Assembly (NCBI GenBank): GCA_903868655.1
Contig: CAIPWG010000539.1
Location: 1-11,253 of the forward strand
DNA from: an uncultured Sphingomonadales bacterium
GTDB lineage: Bacteria > Pseudomonadota > Alphaproteobacteria > Sphingomonadales > Sphingomonadaceae
Direction of reading: 5' to 3'
Length of the DNA stretch: 11,253 nt
The position numbers were made by a program, and so were the translations under genes. This document shows, one piece after another, positions 1-7,364 of this stretch (positions are counted from its first letter, which is position 1; the number at the start of each line of letters is the position of its first letter). Under the pieces are notes generated by a model that saw nothing but the letters and a program-made list of their open reading frames with translations, ran no database searches and had not been told where the DNA came from.

Positions 1-869
1 CCGCGTTCGATCGCCACGCCCTTCATAAGTTTGTCGACGATCGGCGCGGCGGTTTCCGCCGGGATGGCGAAACCGATGCCGACGCTGCCGCCGGTGGGCG
101 AAAAGATCGCGTTGTTGATGCCGATGACATTGCCATGCATGTCGAACATCGGTCCACCCGAATTGCCACGGTTGATCGAGGCATCGGTCTGCAGATAGCG
201 ATCATAGGCCGAACCCGTACCGGTGTTGCGCGATACAGCGGAAATAATCCCCTGCGTTACCGTGCCGCCCAGACCATAAGGGTTACCGATTGCGATCACC
301 CAGTCACCCACGCGGGCATGGCGCGAATCACCGAATTTCACAAACGGGAAAGGCTTGGTGCCGTTGATCTTCAGGACCGCGAGATCCGATGCGGCATCTT
401 TGCCCACCAGTTTGGCGGGATAATCGGTGCCGTCGGGCATGGTGACGGTGATCGATTCGACCTCGCCTTTGCCCTCTGCGGTGATCACGTGGTTGTTGGT
501 CACGATATAACCGTCTGCAGAAACCACGAAACCCGATCCCAGCGACTGCGCTTCACGCGTTTGGCCACCGCCGTTGCCCGAACCGCCGGGTCCACCGGGT
601 CCGCCGAACATTTCGCCAAACGGTGTGCCGGCAAAGGGGTTCTGGGCCTGCACTTTCACGCGCTGACGTGTCGATATGTTGACCACGGCTGGCTGCAACT
701 GCTGGGTCAGATCAGCAAAGCTGGCTGGGGCCCCGGCGCGCGGGACCACCGCGTCCATCTTTGCGCTGTCGTTTTGTGCCACTTGGGCCCCGGCCGGAAA
801 ACCGGTAGCCAATGTCAGCGCACTGCCGGCGAGGAGCAGCGCCGAAGTAACTCCATAAGCGTATCGCAC
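1..869 (-). CDS. degP: Do-family periplasmic serine protease (DegP/HtrA/MucD), C-terminus outside the window
   Basis: Trypsin-like serine protease/chaperone that degrades or refolds misfolded envelope proteins in the periplasm. The visible 289 residues give a signal peptide (about residues 1-28, hydrophobic core LLLAGSALTLA), a glycine/proline-rich loop (77-103) and the protease domain. The catalytic triad is visible: His127 in TNNHV, Asp162 in ASDLAVLK and Ser237 in NRGNSGGP. The PDZ domains expected of the family would lie beyond base 1. The start is GTG at 869: it is the only start codon downstream of an in-frame TAA at 885-887 that keeps the signal peptide, and GAGGGA (884-879) sits 9 bases upstream as ribosome binding site. 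It lies 112 bases downstream of hflC on the same strand, the hflK-hflC-htrA order known from other alphaproteobacteria. A weak own promoter (TTTTCA, 15 bases, TATGAA at 895-890) is possible. Confidence 0.95.
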   Translation of the reverse strand, partial: MRYAYGVTSALLLAGSALTLATGFPAGAQVAQNDSAKMDAVVPRAGAPASFADLTQQLQPAVVNISTRQRVKVQAQNPFAGTPFGEMFGGPGGPGGSGNGGGQTREAQSLGSGFVVSADGYIVTNNHVITAEGKGEVESITVTMPDGTDYPAKLVGKDAASDLAVLKINGTKPFPFVKFGDSRHARVGDWVIAIGNPYGLGGTVTQGIISAVSRNTGTGSAYDRYLQTDASINRGNSGGPMFDMHGNVIGINNAIFSPTGGSVGIGFAIPAETAAPIVDKLMKGVAIER

Positions 870-981: not shown

Positions 982-1773
982 CTAATGCCCGCGAAACTGC
1001 CGCAAATAGGCATTATCGGGTGACAGCACGATTGTCGTGCGGCTGCCCTTTTGCCCAAAAGTTGCCTCATAGCTCTGCATCGCGCGATAAAAATCATAGA
1101 ATTGCGGATCTTTGCCGAAACTGGCCGCATAGATCTGCCCGGCGCGCGCAGCAGCGGTAGCGCGAATCACGGCTGCATCGCGGTGCCCCTCTTCAGTGAT
1201 GGCAGCGGCTTCGGCTTGCGCTTTGCCAGCCATCCGCGCCAGCGCCGCATCAAGCGCCGCCCCTTCGGGCAGTCCTACACGCGACAGCCGCACATCGGTC
1301 ACCGCAATCCCATACCGCGCCAGGTCGCGATCGAGCATACTGCGCAAGGCCCCGTTCTGGCCACTTTCGCGCGCAAACCCATCACGCAACGCCGATACAA
1401 AGACTGCGCGCAGACTGTCATTCGCGGTGTCGGCGGTGCCGAGCGTCTGATAAAATCGAATGGGATCACGCACTCGCCAGGTGGCAAAGGCATCGATGGA
1501 CAGCGGCTGGCCATCAGCGGCGGTAACTGTCGTGGCCGTGACCGCCAGCGTCATCAGCCGCCGGTCCAGCCAGACCACCCGATCGACCCATGGCACGCAC
1601 AGCGCAAGACCCGCTTCGTTGATCACCCGCAGCGGATGACCGAGGCGAAGAACCAGCGCGGTGCGATCCTGCGCCACTGGGAATATGGCGGCACCGGCCA
1701 GGACCGCCAGGGCTGAAGCACCGGCGACGGCCCGCCAGGGCCATGCTGCCAAAGTCCGCATGTCAATGGCCAT
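982..1773 (-). CDS. hflC: HflC, SPFH-domain subunit of the FtsH-modulating HflKC complex
   Basis: Membrane-anchored SPFH (band 7) protein that assembles with HflK into a periplasm-facing cage around the FtsH protease and controls its access to substrates. The 263-residue product has one N-terminal transmembrane segment (about 14-33), an SPFH domain (about 34-170), a helical stalk (about 175-218) and the family C-terminus (FGKDPQFYDFYR from 219, SPDNAYLRQF near the end). ATG at 1773 is chosen because it overlaps the hflK stop by 11 bases and places the transmembrane segment at the N-terminus; an upstream in-frame ATG at 1860 would add 29 residues inside hflK. Oddity: between ARM (179-181) and FGKDP there are 37 residues, against 59 in E. 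coli HflC as I recall it. The conserved RGEGDAEA part of the stalk is missing. HflK carries a deletion of the same size. Confidence 0.93.
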   Translation of the reverse strand: MAIDMRTLAAWPWRAVAGASALAVLAGAAIFPVAQDRTALVLRLGHPLRVINEAGLALCVPWVDRVVWLDRRLMTLAVTATTVTAADGQPLSIDAFATWRVRDPIRFYQTLGTADTANDSLRAVFVSALRDGFARESGQNGALRSMLDRDLARYGIAVTDVRLSRVGLPEGAALDAALARMAGKAQAEAAAITEEGHRDAAVIRATAAARAGQIYAASFGKDPQFYDFYRAMQSYEATFGQKGSRTTIVLSPDNAYLRQFRGH

Positions 1774-2911
1774 CGCCGCCCCTTGCACTGTGTTGTGGCG
1801 GCTCCGCAGCCGGCGGGGACAGCGGAGGCAGTTGGGTGATCGTGCCCGGGGCATCAACAATCACTTTGTCGCTTTGCGCCATCACGCGTTCCATTGTCGC
1901 GTAATACATCTGCCGCCGGGTAATGTCGGGTGCGTTGCGATATTGGGCATAAACTTCGTCAAACGCCCCAGCCTCTCCCTGCGCGTGGGTGATCCATTGC
2001 CGCGACCAGTTTTTGGCCTGGTCCAACTCGCTCAGGGCCTCATTGCGTGCGGCGCTGACAGCGCGCAATGCGTCTGCAACCCGTGCGGGCGGGTCGGCAC
2101 GGCGCAAGTCCAGGCCATCAATCGCTATGCCCGACTGATAGCCGTCCAGCATGGCCTGAAGCAGGGCCGCTGCGCGATGGCCGACTGTTTCACGCGATGT
2201 TCCCATGGCCTGCGCCGCATCACTTTGTGCCACAGCGGTACGCAACGCGTCATCCGCGGCCTGCCGCAACGTAGCATCTGGTGCAGCCAGACCCAGTGCA
2301 TAGCGCCGCAGATCGCGAATGTGCCAACGCACATCGTAGACGACAGCAACCAATCCACCATCGCGGGTCATCATCAGGTGTTCGCCCCGACTATCAGGCG
2401 GTGTCAGGTGGCGCATCGTCGTCACGTCGTCGATGCGGACACTGCTGATCGGTGCTGGCCAAGTGACTACCAATCCAGGGCCATGCGCCTCTCCCCAGAC
2501 ACCCAGCGTGGAAACAAGTGCCTGATCGTGTGGTCCCACAGCGTGGAGCGATGTCGTCCCCAGCCCCGCCAGAACCAGGGCCCCGGCCAGCCAGCCGCCC
2601 CAGCGCGCAGTGAGCGCGGACAAACCGCCCACGCCAAGCCGACGCAGCACCGCCACCAAGCTGCGCGATGTGGCGCCGCGACGGGACGGTTGCGCGGAAC
2701 GGCGCGGCCGCGAATGGCGCCAGGGATTGGGCGCGCGCGGCGCGACAACGGCAGTGACGGGCACTTTTTCAGCCGGACCAGGCACAAGGCTATCGCCATC
2801 CTGAGGCGCAGGCACGGGTTCGGTCCCACCCCACGGGCTGTCCTGCTGGGCCGCGCCGAGGCCGTCTTTCGACGGACCATCGGTGGCCTTTCCCCTGTCA
2901 AGACCACTCAT
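1763..2911 (-). CDS. hflK: HflK, SPFH-domain subunit of the FtsH-modulating HflKC complex
   Basis: Partner of HflC in the inner-membrane cage that regulates FtsH. The 382-residue protein has a cytoplasmic Pro/Arg-rich tail (1-100; SPWGG at 25-29 and NPW at 62-64 are remnants of the usual Gly/Trp-rich tail), one transmembrane segment (about 104-124), an SPFH domain (about 127-275) and a stalk ending in the family motif YRNAPDITRRQMYYATMERVM from 324. The C-terminal tail is proline-rich. ATG at 2911 is chosen because upstream in-frame codons would run through the divergent promoter region into the mrp antisense. There is no Shine-Dalgarno, and TATAAC lies only 7 bases upstream, so the message may be leaderless. 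The last 11 bases overlap hflC. Oddity: from DPP (273-275) to PDIT the protein is 22 residues shorter than E. coli HflK, lost near residue 306. Confidence 0.92.
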   Translation of the reverse strand: MSGLDRGKATDGPSKDGLGAAQQDSPWGGTEPVPAPQDGDSLVPGPAEKVPVTAVVAPRAPNPWRHSRPRRSAQPSRRGATSRSLVAVLRRLGVGGLSALTARWGGWLAGALVLAGLGTTSLHAVGPHDQALVSTLGVWGEAHGPGLVVTWPAPISSVRIDDVTTMRHLTPPDSRGEHLMMTRDGGLVAVVYDVRWHIRDLRRYALGLAAPDATLRQAADDALRTAVAQSDAAQAMGTSRETVGHRAAALLQAMLDGYQSGIAIDGLDLRRADPPARVADALRAVSAARNEALSELDQAKNWSRQWITHAQGEAGAFDEVYAQYRNAPDITRRQMYYATMERVMAQSDKVIVDAPGTITQLPPLSPPAAEPPQHSARGGDGH

Positions 2912-3019: not shown

Positions 3020-3985
3020 ATGACAGAGGCAACAGCGCTGGAACAGGCATTGCGCACCGTGGCGGGCGAGCGCGTACAAGTCGTGCGCATTTCGGCTGAT
3101 GGTTCGGCCAGTGTGGTAATCGATGCCGAAGGGCTGGACGACACCGCGCGCCAGACCATGCAGAGCGATTTGCACGCCGCAGCCAAGGGTATCGGCGTGG
3201 CGGCACTGCGCGTGGCAATGTCGGCACCGCGCCGCCGCCGCCGGATTATCGCGGTCGGTTCGGGCAAGGGTGGGGTTGGGAAGTCGACATTGTCGGCCAA
3301 TCTGGCGATCGCGCTGCACCGGCTGGGGCGCGCCACCGGGCTGGTCGATGCGGATATCCACGGCCCGTCGCAAGCGCGGCTGTTTGCCACCGAAGACCAG
3401 CGACCCGAGGCCAACGGCAACAAGCTGACCCCGGTGATGAGCCGGTTTGGCGTGCCAATGTTGTCGATGGCGCATCTGGTGCGCCCGGGTCAGCCGATCG
3501 CATGGCGCGGTCCAATGGCGGGCAATGCGCTGGGTCAACTGATCGACGCGGAATGGGGCAATGCCGAAGTGATCGTGGTCGATCTGCCGCCGGGCACCGG
3601 CGATGTGCAATTGACCATGCTGCAAAAATACAAACCCGCAGGCGCCGTCATCGTGTCAACCCCGCAGGATCTGGCACTCATCGACGCCACCCGTGCGATG
3701 GGCCTGTTCGAACAAGGCGGGGTGCCGCTGATCGGGATGGTCGAAAACATGGCCGGGTATCTGTGCCCGCATTGCGGTGAAACCAGCGATCCGTTTGGAC
3801 ACGGCGGGGCCGAACAGGCAGCCATGACCAGCGGACTGCCGTTCCTGGGTCGCATTCCCCTCGCCATGGCGATCCGTCAGGGCAGCGACGCGGGCGAGCC
3901 ACCCGCGGCCGGTGAAGGACCGCTGGCCGATGCCTATCTGGCGATCGCGCGTCAACTGGTGGAATGGTTGGACCGCAACGGCTGA
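3020..3985 (+). CDS. mrp: Mrp/NBP35-family P-loop ATPase, iron-sulfur cluster carrier (ApbC)
   Basis: Cytoplasmic dimeric P-loop NTPase that binds and hands over [4Fe-4S] clusters to apo-enzymes. In the 321-residue product the deviant Walker A GKGGVGKST is at 82-90, the Walker B-like VVDLPPGTGD at 186-195, and the cluster-binding CPHC pair at 249-252, all as in the family. The N-terminal 70 residues are a reduced MIP18/DUF59-type domain without the usual DPE loop and cysteine. ATG at 3020 is used: AAGGA at 3000-3004 is 15 bases upstream, which is long. A second ATG at 3009 opens a 4-codon frame (ATGAAAACGCGATGA) whose stop overlaps the mrp start, so translation may be coupled through it. It is the first gene of a plus-strand run, divergent from hflK by 108 bases, and its TGA overlaps the next ATG by one base. 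Confidence 0.95.
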   Translation: MTEATALEQALRTVAGERVQVVRISADGSASVVIDAEGLDDTARQTMQSDLHAAAKGIGVAALRVAMSAPRRRRRIIAVGSGKGGVGKSTLSANLAIALHRLGRATGLVDADIHGPSQARLFATEDQRPEANGNKLTPVMSRFGVPMLSMAHLVRPGQPIAWRGPMAGNALGQLIDAEWGNAEVIVVDLPPGTGDVQLTMLQKYKPAGAVIVSTPQDLALIDATRAMGLFEQGGVPLIGMVENMAGYLCPHCGETSDPFGHGGAEQAAMTSGLPFLGRIPLAMAIRQGSDAGEPPAAGEGPLADAYLAIARQLVEWLDRNG

Positions 3986-6333
3986 TGCGCAGGCCCCGCG
4001 CCTTTTCCCGCCGCACGGTGCTGGTCGGGGCCGGCGCAGCGGGCGCGCTGGTGGTGGGTCTGGCGCTGGTACCGCGCCATTATCGTGCTCCGCTGGTCGC
4101 GGGCGATAATGACCATGTGATCGACGGGTTGATCCGGCTATCGCGCGATGGCACGGTCAGTGTGGCGGTCCCGGCAACCGAAATGGGCCAGGGCGTGACC
4201 ACGCTCGCCGCCCAGATCATTGCTGTGGAACTGGGTGCGGACTGGCGTCGGATCGGGGTCGAACTGGCCCCGCTCAGCCCGTTTTATGCAGATCCCGTGA
4301 TTGCCGCCGAATGGGCCACGATGTGGCTGCCCCGCAGCATCGCGGGCGCTCCGTGGATCGGCGAAGCCCTGATTGGCGAACTGGCCGGAGCGCCAGGCGA
4401 TGCGGTGGTGCGGTATGAGGCCGATACCCAACCCGTGCTGATAACCGCATGCGGCACCACCGTGGCGGCATTTGAAACCCGGCTGCGATTGGCCGCCGCT
4501 GCTTTGCGACAAACGCTGATCGAAGCGGCAGCTCGCGAGGCGGGGGTCCCCGCCGCCCAATGCGACACCCATGATCATCATGTGATCGTTGGCAAACGCC
4601 GCGTCGCTTTTGCGAAGTTGATCGATAGCGCGCTGGCAGGGCCGTTGCCTGCCGCGCCGGCCTTGCGCCCTGCGCCCGCGCGCGAGTTGTCTGATTCACC
4701 CAACGGGCACGTTGCTGCGCCCGATTTCCCGAGGATCGACTTGCCCGCCAAAGTCGATGGCAGCCTGACCTTTGCAGCCGACGTGCGCCTGCCCGGGCTG
4801 GTTTACGCGGCGATCGCGCATGGTCCGCAAGGCCATTGCCGACTGGCCAGCCACGATGCGGCTGCGGCCCGCAAAGTGCCCGGCTTGATCGCAGTAGTGC
4901 CGTCGGAACGCTGGCTGGCGGCTGTCGCACACGCATGGCCCACTGCCGAACGCGCGCTTGTGGCGATGGACCCCTTGTTCCGGATCGATCCGCATGGGCC
5001 GGGCCGGGTGGTAGACAGCACGGCGTGCGAAGCTGCACTCGATCACGCGTTGCAGCACGGTGGCGCAAGCCGGATTGCCGCCGAGGGCGATGCCGATGGG
5101 GTGCTGGCGCATCCCGCATTAAGCGCACGTTATGACGTAGAACCGGCATTGCACGCCCCGCTTGAACCGGCCAGTGCCACCGCCCGGCTCAGCGGCGGAC
5201 AACTGGAACTGTGGATTGCGACGCAGGCACCCGAAGCCGCCGCGCGCGCCGCCGCGCGGGGCGCCGGGATCGGGCGCGATGCGGTTACCGTCTATGCCCT
5301 GCCCGCTGGCGGCAGCTTTGACGCACGGCTCGACACACGCATTGCCGAAGATGTCGCTGTGATTGCGCGCGAAACCGGGCGTCCGGTGCAGTTGACCTGG
5401 TCCCGCTGGCAGGAAACGCTCGCCGGATTTCCCCGCGCGCCGGTCACCGCACAGGTCAGCGCGGCATTTGACCCCGCCAAACAGCATTTGATAGGCTGGC
5501 GCGCACGCATCGCCACGCCCGCAAGTGGCGTCGAAACCGGCGCGCGGCTGTTTGCCGGAAAGACGTCAAACGCCGCCCAGACTGCTGCGCAAGGTGCTGC
5601 CGATCCACAGGCCGTGGCGGGTGGCATGCCCATTTATGCCATTCCTGCCCGCGCGCTGGATCATGTGACGGCGGATATCAGCCTGCCGGTCGGACGACTG
5701 CGCGGCGGCGCGCATGGTTACACCGCGTTTATCACCGAAAGTTTTATCGATGAATGCGCGCATTGGGCAGGCGCAGAACCGCTGTCCTTCCGCGCCGCTA
5801 TGCTGGGCAGCGAACCACGGCTGGTCGCCTGTCTCGAAGGTGCCGCGCATCTGGCGATGTGGGGCGGCGGTTCGGGTGGATCGGGGCAGGGCCTTGCCTG
5901 CCATGCGTTGCATCTGGCCGCGCCCGAGGGCCCACGCGCAGGATATATTGCCGTGGTGGCCAGCGCGCGCGTGGCAGGTGGCGCCATCCGGGTCGACAGC
6001 ATCGCCGCCTATTGCGACATTGGCCGGGTGATCAACCGCGACATTGCGCGCCAACAGATCGAAGGCGGGTTGCTGTTCGGCATGGCGCATGCGCTTGGCG
6101 GCACGACACGGTGGGCTGCTGGATTGCCAACGGCCGGACGGCTGGCCGATTTGCGCCTGCCACTGCTGGCCGATTGCCCGAAGGTTGAGGTTGCCTTTGC
6201 CACCAGCGACGCCGAACCGTTCGACCCGGGCGAATTGGGGATGGTTGCTATTGCACCTGCCATCGGCAATGCCTTGTTTTCTGCCAGCGGCACCCGTTTT
6301 CGTCGCCTGCCTTTCCTGTCCGAAGGACTATGA
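3985..6333 (+). CDS. Tat-exported molybdopterin-binding subunit-like protein (xanthine dehydrogenase / IorB family), divergent
   Basis: Related to the large catalytic subunit of molybdenum hydroxylases of the isoquinoline 1-oxidoreductase (IorB) type, which hydroxylate N-heterocycles or aldehydes. 782 residues. Visible are a twin-arginine signal (SRRTVLVG at 8-15 followed by a hydrophobic stretch to about 28), EMGQG (66-70), RGGAHGYTAF with ESFIDE (573-590), the cofactor-loop region GSGQGLACH (632-640), CDIGRVIN with QIEGG near 670-690, and GELG (749-752), whose Glu750 matches the catalytic glutamate. Oddities: the usual GGGFGRR motif is GGSFDAR (442-448), the following W-(T/S)-R-E-D is WSRWQE, and no [2Fe-2S] alpha subunit gene is adjacent. 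ATG at 3985 overlaps the mrp stop (TGATG), so coupling is likely. Family membership is clear; substrate and even activity are unknown. Confidence 0.85.
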   Translation: MRRPRAFSRRTVLVGAGAAGALVVGLALVPRHYRAPLVAGDNDHVIDGLIRLSRDGTVSVAVPATEMGQGVTTLAAQIIAVELGADWRRIGVELAPLSPFYADPVIAAEWATMWLPRSIAGAPWIGEALIGELAGAPGDAVVRYEADTQPVLITACGTTVAAFETRLRLAAAALRQTLIEAAAREAGVPAAQCDTHDHHVIVGKRRVAFAKLIDSALAGPLPAAPALRPAPARELSDSPNGHVAAPDFPRIDLPAKVDGSLTFAADVRLPGLVYAAIAHGPQGHCRLASHDAAAARKVPGLIAVVPSERWLAAVAHAWPTAERALVAMDPLFRIDPHGPGRVVDSTACEAALDHALQHGGASRIAAEGDADGVLAHPALSARYDVEPALHAPLEPASATARLSGGQLELWIATQAPEAAARAAARGAGIGRDAVTVYALPAGGSFDARLDTRIAEDVAVIARETGRPVQLTWSRWQETLAGFPRAPVTAQVSAAFDPAKQHLIGWRARIATPASGVETGARLFAGKTSNAAQTAAQGAADPQAVAGGMPIYAIPARALDHVTADISLPVGRLRGGAHGYTAFITESFIDECAHWAGAEPLSFRAAMLGSEPRLVACLEGAAHLAMWGGGSGGSGQGLACHALHLAAPEGPRAGYIAVVASARVAGGAIRVDSIAAYCDIGRVINRDIARQQIEGGLLFGMAHALGGTTRWAAGLPTAGRLADLRLPLLADCPKVEVAFATSDAEPFDPGELGMVAIAPAIGNALFSASGTRFRRLPFLSEGL

Positions 6334-7364
6334 TGCCCGAACCTCTTTCGCCTCATTGGCCCAGTGATCACCCGCGCGTCGCCACAGGACGGGTCGGCCT
6401 TTTGGTAGTCAATCTGGGCACACCCGATGCGCCCGATGCACGATCGGTGGCGCGCTATCTCAAACAGTTTCTGTCAGATCGGCGTGTGGTCGAAATTCCA
6501 GCGCTGCTGTGGCAGCCGATCCTGCGCGGGATCATTCTCAACACCCGGCCCAGGAAATCGGCGCATGCTTATGCGCAAGTCTGGACCGATGAAGGATCAC
6601 CACTGGCAGCGATCACCGCGGCGCAGGCACGCGCGTTGCAGCTGCGGCTGGGCGATGCGGTGGTGGTCCGCCATGCCATGCGTTACGGCAAGCCGGCCAT
6701 TGCAGCAGAGCTTGATACTTTGCTCGAAGCCGGCTGCGAACGCATTCTGATCGCACCGCTTTATCCGCACTATTCAGGCGCGACCACCGGCAGTGTCATG
6801 GATGACGTCGCGCGGTGGTTGCTCGGCAATCGCCGCTTGCCGGCCTTGCGCACGCTGCCGCCGTATCATGATGATCAGGGCTATATCGACGCGCTGCATC
6901 GTGATTTGTCGCAGCAGATCGCGGCGCTCGACTTCACACCCGAATTGCTGATGCTCAGCTATCACGGAATGCCCAAGCGCACGCTTGAACTGGGCGATCC
7001 CTATCATTGCCATTGCCGCAAAACGTCGCGCCTGCTGGGCGATGTGTTCAGGCAGAGCCACCCCGACTTGCGGGTGATCACCACGTTTCAATCGCGCTTT
7101 GGCCCGGCCAAGTGGCTTGAACCGGCAACCGACCACACGCTGGTCGCCGAAGCCAAGGCTGGCACAAAACGAATTGCCATCGCCGCACCCGGCTTCTCCG
7201 CCGATTGCCTCGAAACGTTGGAAGAACTGGCGATTCGCGGGCGCGAGGAATTCATCGGCGCGGGTGGCATCGACTTTGCCGCACTCGGCTGTCTCAATGC
7301 CGGGGATCAGGGGATGATCCTGCTCGAAGAAATGGTTCGCCGCGAATTGTCCGGCTGGATTTGA
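6330..7364 (+). CDS. hemH: Ferrochelatase (HemH)
   Basis: Inserts Fe(2+) into protoporphyrin IX, the last step of protoporphyrin-dependent haem synthesis, at the inner face of the cytoplasmic membrane. The 344-residue length fits bacterial ferrochelatases. Visible family signatures are VVNLGTPDAPD (26-36), the APLYPHYSGATTGS stretch (142-155), LSYHGMP with catalytic His212 (209-215), DPYHCHCRKTSRL (223-235), and PGFSADCLETLEE (287-299), whose Glu295 matches the second conserved catalytic residue. The C-terminus has a single Cys321 and lacks the clustered cysteines that bind [2Fe-2S] in some ferrochelatases. ATG at 6330 overlaps the previous stop as ATGA; the second ATG at 6333 is an equally possible start one codon later. 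It is the last gene of the mrp run and faces the next gene tail-to-tail with three bases between stops. Confidence 0.97.
   Translation: MMPEPLSPHWPSDHPRVATGRVGLLVVNLGTPDAPDARSVARYLKQFLSDRRVVEIPALLWQPILRGIILNTRPRKSAHAYAQVWTDEGSPLAAITAAQARALQLRLGDAVVVRHAMRYGKPAIAAELDTLLEAGCERILIAPLYPHYSGATTGSVMDDVARWLLGNRRLPALRTLPPYHDDQGYIDALHRDLSQQIAALDFTPELLMLSYHGMPKRTLELGDPYHCHCRKTSRLLGDVFRQSHPDLRVITTFQSRFGPAKWLEPATDHTLVAEAKAGTKRIAIAAPGFSADCLETLEELAIRGREEFIGAGGIDFAALGCLNAGDQGMILLEEMVRRELSGWI

Follow-up and report, generated by a model that had tools for sequence, protein, structure and literature searches.

Paired loss of two 11-residue repeats from the HflK and HflC stalks of Sphingomonadaceae, with a smaller membrane cage as its probable consequence

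The HflK/HflC complex is known; what is unusual in Sphingomonadaceae is that the stalk helix (CC1) of both proteins is shortened by exactly two 11-residue repeats, and that the paired shortening is family-wide. The loss is not a matter of chance, because both proteins are short in all 118 family genomes in which both stalks were measured and neither is short in any of 287 other genome rows. The stretch of DNA analysed here (the window, 11,253 nucleotides) is an entire contig of a fragmentary genome (654 contigs, 85% complete). The genomes closest to it fall within one genus, and the window is treated here as Novosphingobium. On its minus strand, hflK (positions 1763 to 2911, 382 aa) overlaps the start of hflC (982 to 1773, 263 aa) by 11 bases at its 3′ end. 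The best NCBIfam matches were HflK TIGR01933 (E 2.8e-41, 141.7 bits) and HflC TIGR01932 (E 1.7e-32, 112.5 bits), scores below the curated equivalog cut-offs of 159.4 and 134.4, respectively, which are annotation thresholds and were not counted as a biological definition. Both proteins contain an SPFH (Band 7) domain that passes the cut-off of PF01145 (E 2.5e-15 for HflK and 5.3e-20 for HflC). In the AlphaFold2 models a single N-terminal helix, predicted to be a membrane helix, precedes the SPFH strands of HflK (residues 98-118) and the SPFH domain of HflC (residues 11-29). Among solved SPFH proteins, the window HflK is closest to HflK (E 6.1e-22 to 4.3e-21, with stomatin at 1.2e-05) and the window HflC to HflC (E 2.8e-22 to 7.2e-22, with the next at 1.1e-06), and hflC adjoins hflK on its downstream side. 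As nearest relatives, gene order and fold concur, the name HflK was retained, and the window protein was regarded as a divergent HflK despite its sub-cut-off score.

Several Novosphingobium relatives, among the matches listed, carry the NCBI name ‘protease modulator HflC’. Several near-complete genomes of the family (e.g. G131, G090 and G117) possess HflC yet gave no TIGR01932 match at E 1e-15. Together with the sub-cut-off scores in the window, this means that automatic annotation may miss or rename HflK and HflC of Sphingomonadaceae. On its downstream side hflC is followed, in the same orientation, by the start of a gene for a Do-family serine protease (degP/htrA-like; 3 to 869, minus strand; open reading frame and TIGR02037, E 6.6e-88), cut by the window edge. 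Elsewhere in the window, an Mrp/ApbC-like ATPase gene (3020-3985) is overlapped at its end by a gene for a molybdopterin-binding protein of the xanthine/aldehyde dehydrogenase type (3964-6333), which is followed by a ferrochelatase gene (6330-7364). The molybdopterin-binding protein has a twin-arginine-like N-terminus.

Stalk lengths were measured against E. coli K-12 hflK and hflC fetched by accession, which replaced the E. coli sequences used in the first-pass annotation; its anchor positions in the two window proteins were correct. From the second P of PP to the P of P[DE]IT, HflK has 54 residues in the window and 76 in E. coli K-12, a difference of 22. From the P of LP to the P of KDP, HflC has 55 and 76 residues, respectively; the 55 include one extra residue, inserted into the loop that follows LP where most long forms have a gap, so that the helix itself has lost 22. 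Counted from ARM to FGKDP, HflC is also 22 residues shorter. In the MAFFT alignment, a single 22-residue gap occupied identical columns in all 121 short HflK rows and all 123 short HflC rows, with duplicate loci and the window itself counted in. The remaining CC1 helices are unbroken in both AlphaFold2 monomer models and nearly equal in length: residues 276-326 of HflK (51 aa; 1934 to 2086, minus strand; model mbbf5fb08f091) and residues 172-221 of HflC (50 aa; 1111 to 1260, minus strand; model mec83b7b168f2), with the gap inside CC1. As aligned, the junction falls at K300/N301 in HflK (2011 to 2012, minus strand), where E. coli HflK residues 270-291 are without a counterpart, and at H197/R198 in HflC (1182 to 1183, minus strand), where E. 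coli HflC residues 244-265 are without one. As the stalk repeats every 11 residues, this placement is somewhat ambiguous and may be shifted by 11 residues. The loss sites had originally been put near base 1993 (HflK) and base 1152 (HflC), and are better placed at 2012/2011 and 1183/1182. The RATA segment, which had been assigned to the left flank in HflC, does not belong there, because the family sequence AQIIRAEADAxAARIYA aligns with AEILRGEGDAxAxxIYA to the right of the gap.

The 11-residue periodicity was examined by averaged hydrophobicity autocorrelation over full-length stalks (286 of HflK and 294 of HflC), with 2000 shuffles. At lag 11 the full-length stalks gave 0.50 (HflK) and 0.48 (HflC), values reached by none of the 2000 shuffles in either case, and at lag 22 they gave 0.59 in HflK (0/2000) and 0.42 in HflC (4/2000). 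Lag 7 was not elevated, its value being reached by 292 (HflK) and 836 (HflC) of 2000 shuffles. The missing 22 residues therefore correspond to two repeats, as had been proposed, and the facing sides of the helices would remain in phase. Among the short stalks, HflC kept lag 11 (20/2000), and in HflK lag 14 was the strongest (11/2000) and lag 11 weak (249/2000), so that some stalk contacts were probably reworked and not simply kept. In the period spectrum, the HflK peaks lay beyond most shuffles (7/300 reached the long-form peak and 9/300 the short-form peak), and the HflC peaks were not distinct from shuffles (69/300 long, 265/300 short).

HflC was searched for in 41 relatives and in 149 family genomes, 143 of which had a match; TIGR01932 was searched in 99 genomes of the order, 115 of the class and 120 of the phylum, and a class sweep with the window HflC (385 genomes, 293 with a match) was the source of further loci. 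Stalks were counted only from sequences that were fetched and aligned, and loci were fetched for part of the matched genomes. The family had 167 genomes with an HflC match, of which 118 yielded lengths for both stalks and two others a length for HflC only; the boundary of Sphingomonadaceae is here that of the genome collection and may be broader than in the NCBI taxonomy. The HflK and HflC lengths were 54 and 55 in 102 of these 118 genomes and 54 and 54 in the other 16. Outside the family every row was long (HflK 76-78, HflC 75-77): 50/50 in the order, 129/129 in the class and 108/108 in the phylum, the comparison set consisting of Pseudomonadota only. Eight long rows deviated from 76 and 76 by one or two residues, six of them through extra residues in the HflK PP loop ahead of the helix and two through a one-residue difference near the right anchor of HflC. 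Among the 405 genome rows with both proteins, no intermediate or one-sided shortening was seen. The SPFH block immediately preceding the stalk took 32 different lengths in HflK and 23 in HflC in the same rows, cut-end rows included, and the constancy of the stalk length is therefore special.

The 405 rows were kept from 415 with both proteins; the 10 dropped were eight duplicates (L003, L004, L124, L125, L128, L283, L029 and L033), L354 with broken hflKC frames (lengths 0 and 19) and L081 with a cut HflK (length 49; HflC 76). Loci L249 and L307 are likely the same record, and both were kept in the phylum group. In that group, 79 of the 108 rows came from a contig scan yielding 80 loci, gammaproteobacterial with one unplaced proteobacterial. 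Six loci provided HflC only (L026 with 54, L131 with 55, and L092, L221, L385 and L399 with 76), and one provided HflK only (L277, 76). Whether a match to the window HflC was in one piece or two was also considered as a test for the short stalk, and was rejected, since the one-piece matches include full-length stalks (genome G348, locus L206). L063-L065 and L067-L070, seven loci belonging to other families of the order, each represent a second hflK/hflC pair in the genome concerned, as judged from the presence of another HflC match elsewhere in seven of the eight genomes of L063-L070. The stalks of L063-L070 are full length (HflC 76, HflK 76-78), and L067-L070 carry an additional, weaker HflK-like frame of 486-490 aa in the same stretch.

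A FastTree tree (LG model; 403 distinct stalk pairs, 484 columns, stalk columns left out) grouped the 118 short rows, without exception, in a single clade (support 1.0), so that one length change is needed. Mapping both indels on the tree, as the first-pass annotation had recommended, thus gave a single short clade. Its central claims, that HflK and HflC have lost equal lengths, that both losses lie within the CC1 stalk and that the shortening is coordinated, all held; neither unequal or off-stalk losses nor shortening of one protein alone, the outcomes that it had named as contrary, appeared. The smaller or shallower FtsH-containing cage that it proposed is a prediction. Equal losses, their location in CC1, their size of two repeats and their co-occurrence in every row measured indicate that the change was coordinated. 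The shortening is real but not peculiar to one organism, being one ancestral change common to Sphingomonadaceae. No independent second case of paired shortening was found among the Pseudomonadota rows, and the length coupling of HflK and HflC rests on one evolutionary event.

In the E. coli HflK/HflC cage with FtsH (PDB 7VHP, 7WI3, 9CZ2 and 9PAW), the CC1 helices of both proteins exceed those of the window by 22 residues, and the 76 residues between anchors found there in both contrast with 54 and 55 in the window. The equality of CC1 in the two E. coli proteins is shared, to within the loop residue, by all 118 family rows. The E. coli QmcA cage (26 chains, 8Z5G) and the human stomatin cage (16 chains, 9WMJ) have the same architecture, but are built from a single protein. 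For human prohibitin PHB1/PHB2 (PDB 8RRH and 9O9Z), a mitochondrial cage of different paralogues with 17% identity over the structural match, PMC12624060 gives 11 pairs; by hand count its helix is about 3 residues longer than the short stalk, and the prohibitin 1 stalk (chain 8rrh_A) is about 19 residues shorter than that of E. coli HflC.

The same source (PMC12624060) describes a correlation between subunit number and CC1 length, y = 0.1782x + 10.22, and with this slope the 24-subunit E. coli cage minus 22 residues would have 20.1 subunits. Our own fit used the sequence distance from the start of CC1 to the C-terminal strand, loops included, in four cages of known structure (16 subunits in stomatin, 22 in prohibitin, 24 in HflK/C and 26 in QmcA). 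It gave 19.9 subunits, or 19.2-21.6 on leaving one cage out; by this loop-including measure the window HflC has 84 residues and E. coli HflC 103, so that it is 19, not 22, shorter. Both fits are correlations over few points. Based on the published slope (20.1), the four-cage fit (19.9) and the prohibitin 22-mer, together with the monomer models, the Sphingomonadaceae cage most likely comprises about 20 subunits, or 10 pairs, within a possible range of 18-22, against 24 in E. coli.

We therefore favour, with reasonable though far from full confidence, an ancestral paired loss of 22 residues, lengths kept equal thereafter, and a smaller cage of about 20 subunits with fewer FtsH hexamers. In the ancestor of Sphingomonadaceae, CC1 of both HflK and HflC would have been cut by two 11-residue repeats, and the two stalk lengths would have been held equal ever since, presumably because the two proteins alternate as neighbours within a single cage wall. 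A wall shortened in this way would probably close with fewer subunits, and the resulting dome above the membrane would be smaller, of prohibitin size, and able to accommodate fewer FtsH hexamers. For E. coli, PMC12048511 describes cages that enclose one, two or four FtsH hexamers, and a smaller ring should enclose fewer. The HflK Arg191-FtsH contact given in the same paper involves a numbering mismatch, as the E. coli K-12 HflK analysed in this work has Ala at residue 191. A stronger form of the proposal, in which CC1 length acts as a ruler, each 11-residue repeat adding about one pair, and the family has a natural 20-subunit (10-pair) cage with fewer FtsH hexamers, perhaps one, is put forward only tentatively.

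The main competitor, which we consider unlikely but worth serious attention, is that 24 subunits and a roughly unchanged diameter are retained, the only difference being a lower wall (up to about 33 angstrom of helix less). Beyond the stalk, the CC2 segment shows no large gaps in the alignment, so that the cap, which also sets the ring, looks unchanged, and the 22 residues make up a whole number of 11-residue repeats. However, the tie between CC1 length and subunit number, both in the correlation given in PMC12624060 and in the four-cage fit, speaks against it, as does prohibitin, which has a similar stalk and 22 subunits.

Six of the 149 family genomes (G058, G064, G065, G074, G077 and G149; 2.1-2.8 Mb each, one only 85% complete) lack both HflC (at E 1e-12) and HflK (at E 1e-3), and in each of 14 further family genomes searched both proteins were present. 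The two genes seem to be dispensable and to disappear as a unit. These absences, the long branch leading to the short clade (0.33) and the open nautilus-like assembly that E. coli itself forms, as described in PMC12048511, would fit a family without a closed mixed cage (an open arc, a small ring or separate homomers), in which the shortening is relaxed decay. Decay would not, however, hold one stalk length in 118 of 118 measured genomes or delete the same 22 residues from both proteins, and the two genes still overlap in the window and are absent together elsewhere, which makes this account quite improbable. That the short form is ancestral and the other Pseudomonadota gained 22 residues is the least credible reading, since, despite the similarly short stalk of mitochondrial prohibitin 1, long stalks were found in every one of the 287 other rows, among them rows from further families of the order and from different classes, and the tree groups the short rows in a single clade.

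The periplasmic part of FtsH was compared in 30 genomes, 15 of Novosphingobium and 15 of other families of the order. Its length, obtained by regular expression, was 85-88 residues in 14 of the 15 genomes from other families and 87 in 12 of the 15 from Novosphingobium; the off-scale values of L440, L442, L443 and L449 were taken as mis-anchored, as the aligned rows show no such insertion. A shortening of FtsH to match the stalk is thus ruled out in these 30 genomes: the periplasmic part is as long in Novosphingobium, and the client has therefore not shrunk along with the cage. In the fragmentary genome of the window, FtsH gave no match at E 1e-100. Novosphingobium FtsH (L441-L455) is mostly of an FFALRQVQ type, against FFMRQMQ in the other families (L426-L440). 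This difference, at the end of the second membrane helix and in the linker, may relate to the changed cage.

In the 11 of 25 Novosphingobium genomes with a clear QmcA match, QmcA has kept its length (12 matches, differing by no more than 3 residues along the matched region), and therefore there is no general trend towards shorter SPFH stalks in Novosphingobium. The genome's third Band 7 protein (L001) did not match QmcA. The qmcA gene lies about 4-8 kb from hflC in eight Novosphingobium genomes (G004:C5, G008:C36, G009:C56, G015:C19, G016:C19, G021:C2, G006:C3 and G023:C27), making two SPFH cage systems near neighbours there. LpxC is an FtsH substrate. With TIGR00325 it was absent from all 41 genomes of the order searched (G000-G040) and found in 4 of 14 control genomes. 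Sixteen of the 41 LpxC-negative genomes belong to other families, and the 15 measured among these all have full-length stalks. The idea that lipopolysaccharide synthesis was lost alongside the short stalk was rejected accordingly; LpxC loss is no marker of the short-stalk clade.

No earlier description of a shortened HflK/HflC stalk was found in the accessible literature on HflK/HflC, SPFH cages and SPFH evolution, in which subscription journals were thinly covered. In general terms, PMC2636767 states that related SPFH proteins may differ greatly in length, mostly through an elongated coiled coil. The Sphingomonadaceae present a natural experiment in one orthologous pair, with two repeats gone from both partners and the new length fixed throughout the family, and the paired shortening gives a sharp, testable prediction of cage stoichiometry. 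The short-stalk complex would offer a direct test of whether CC1 length sets cage size, and of whether cage size limits the number of FtsH proteases enclosed.
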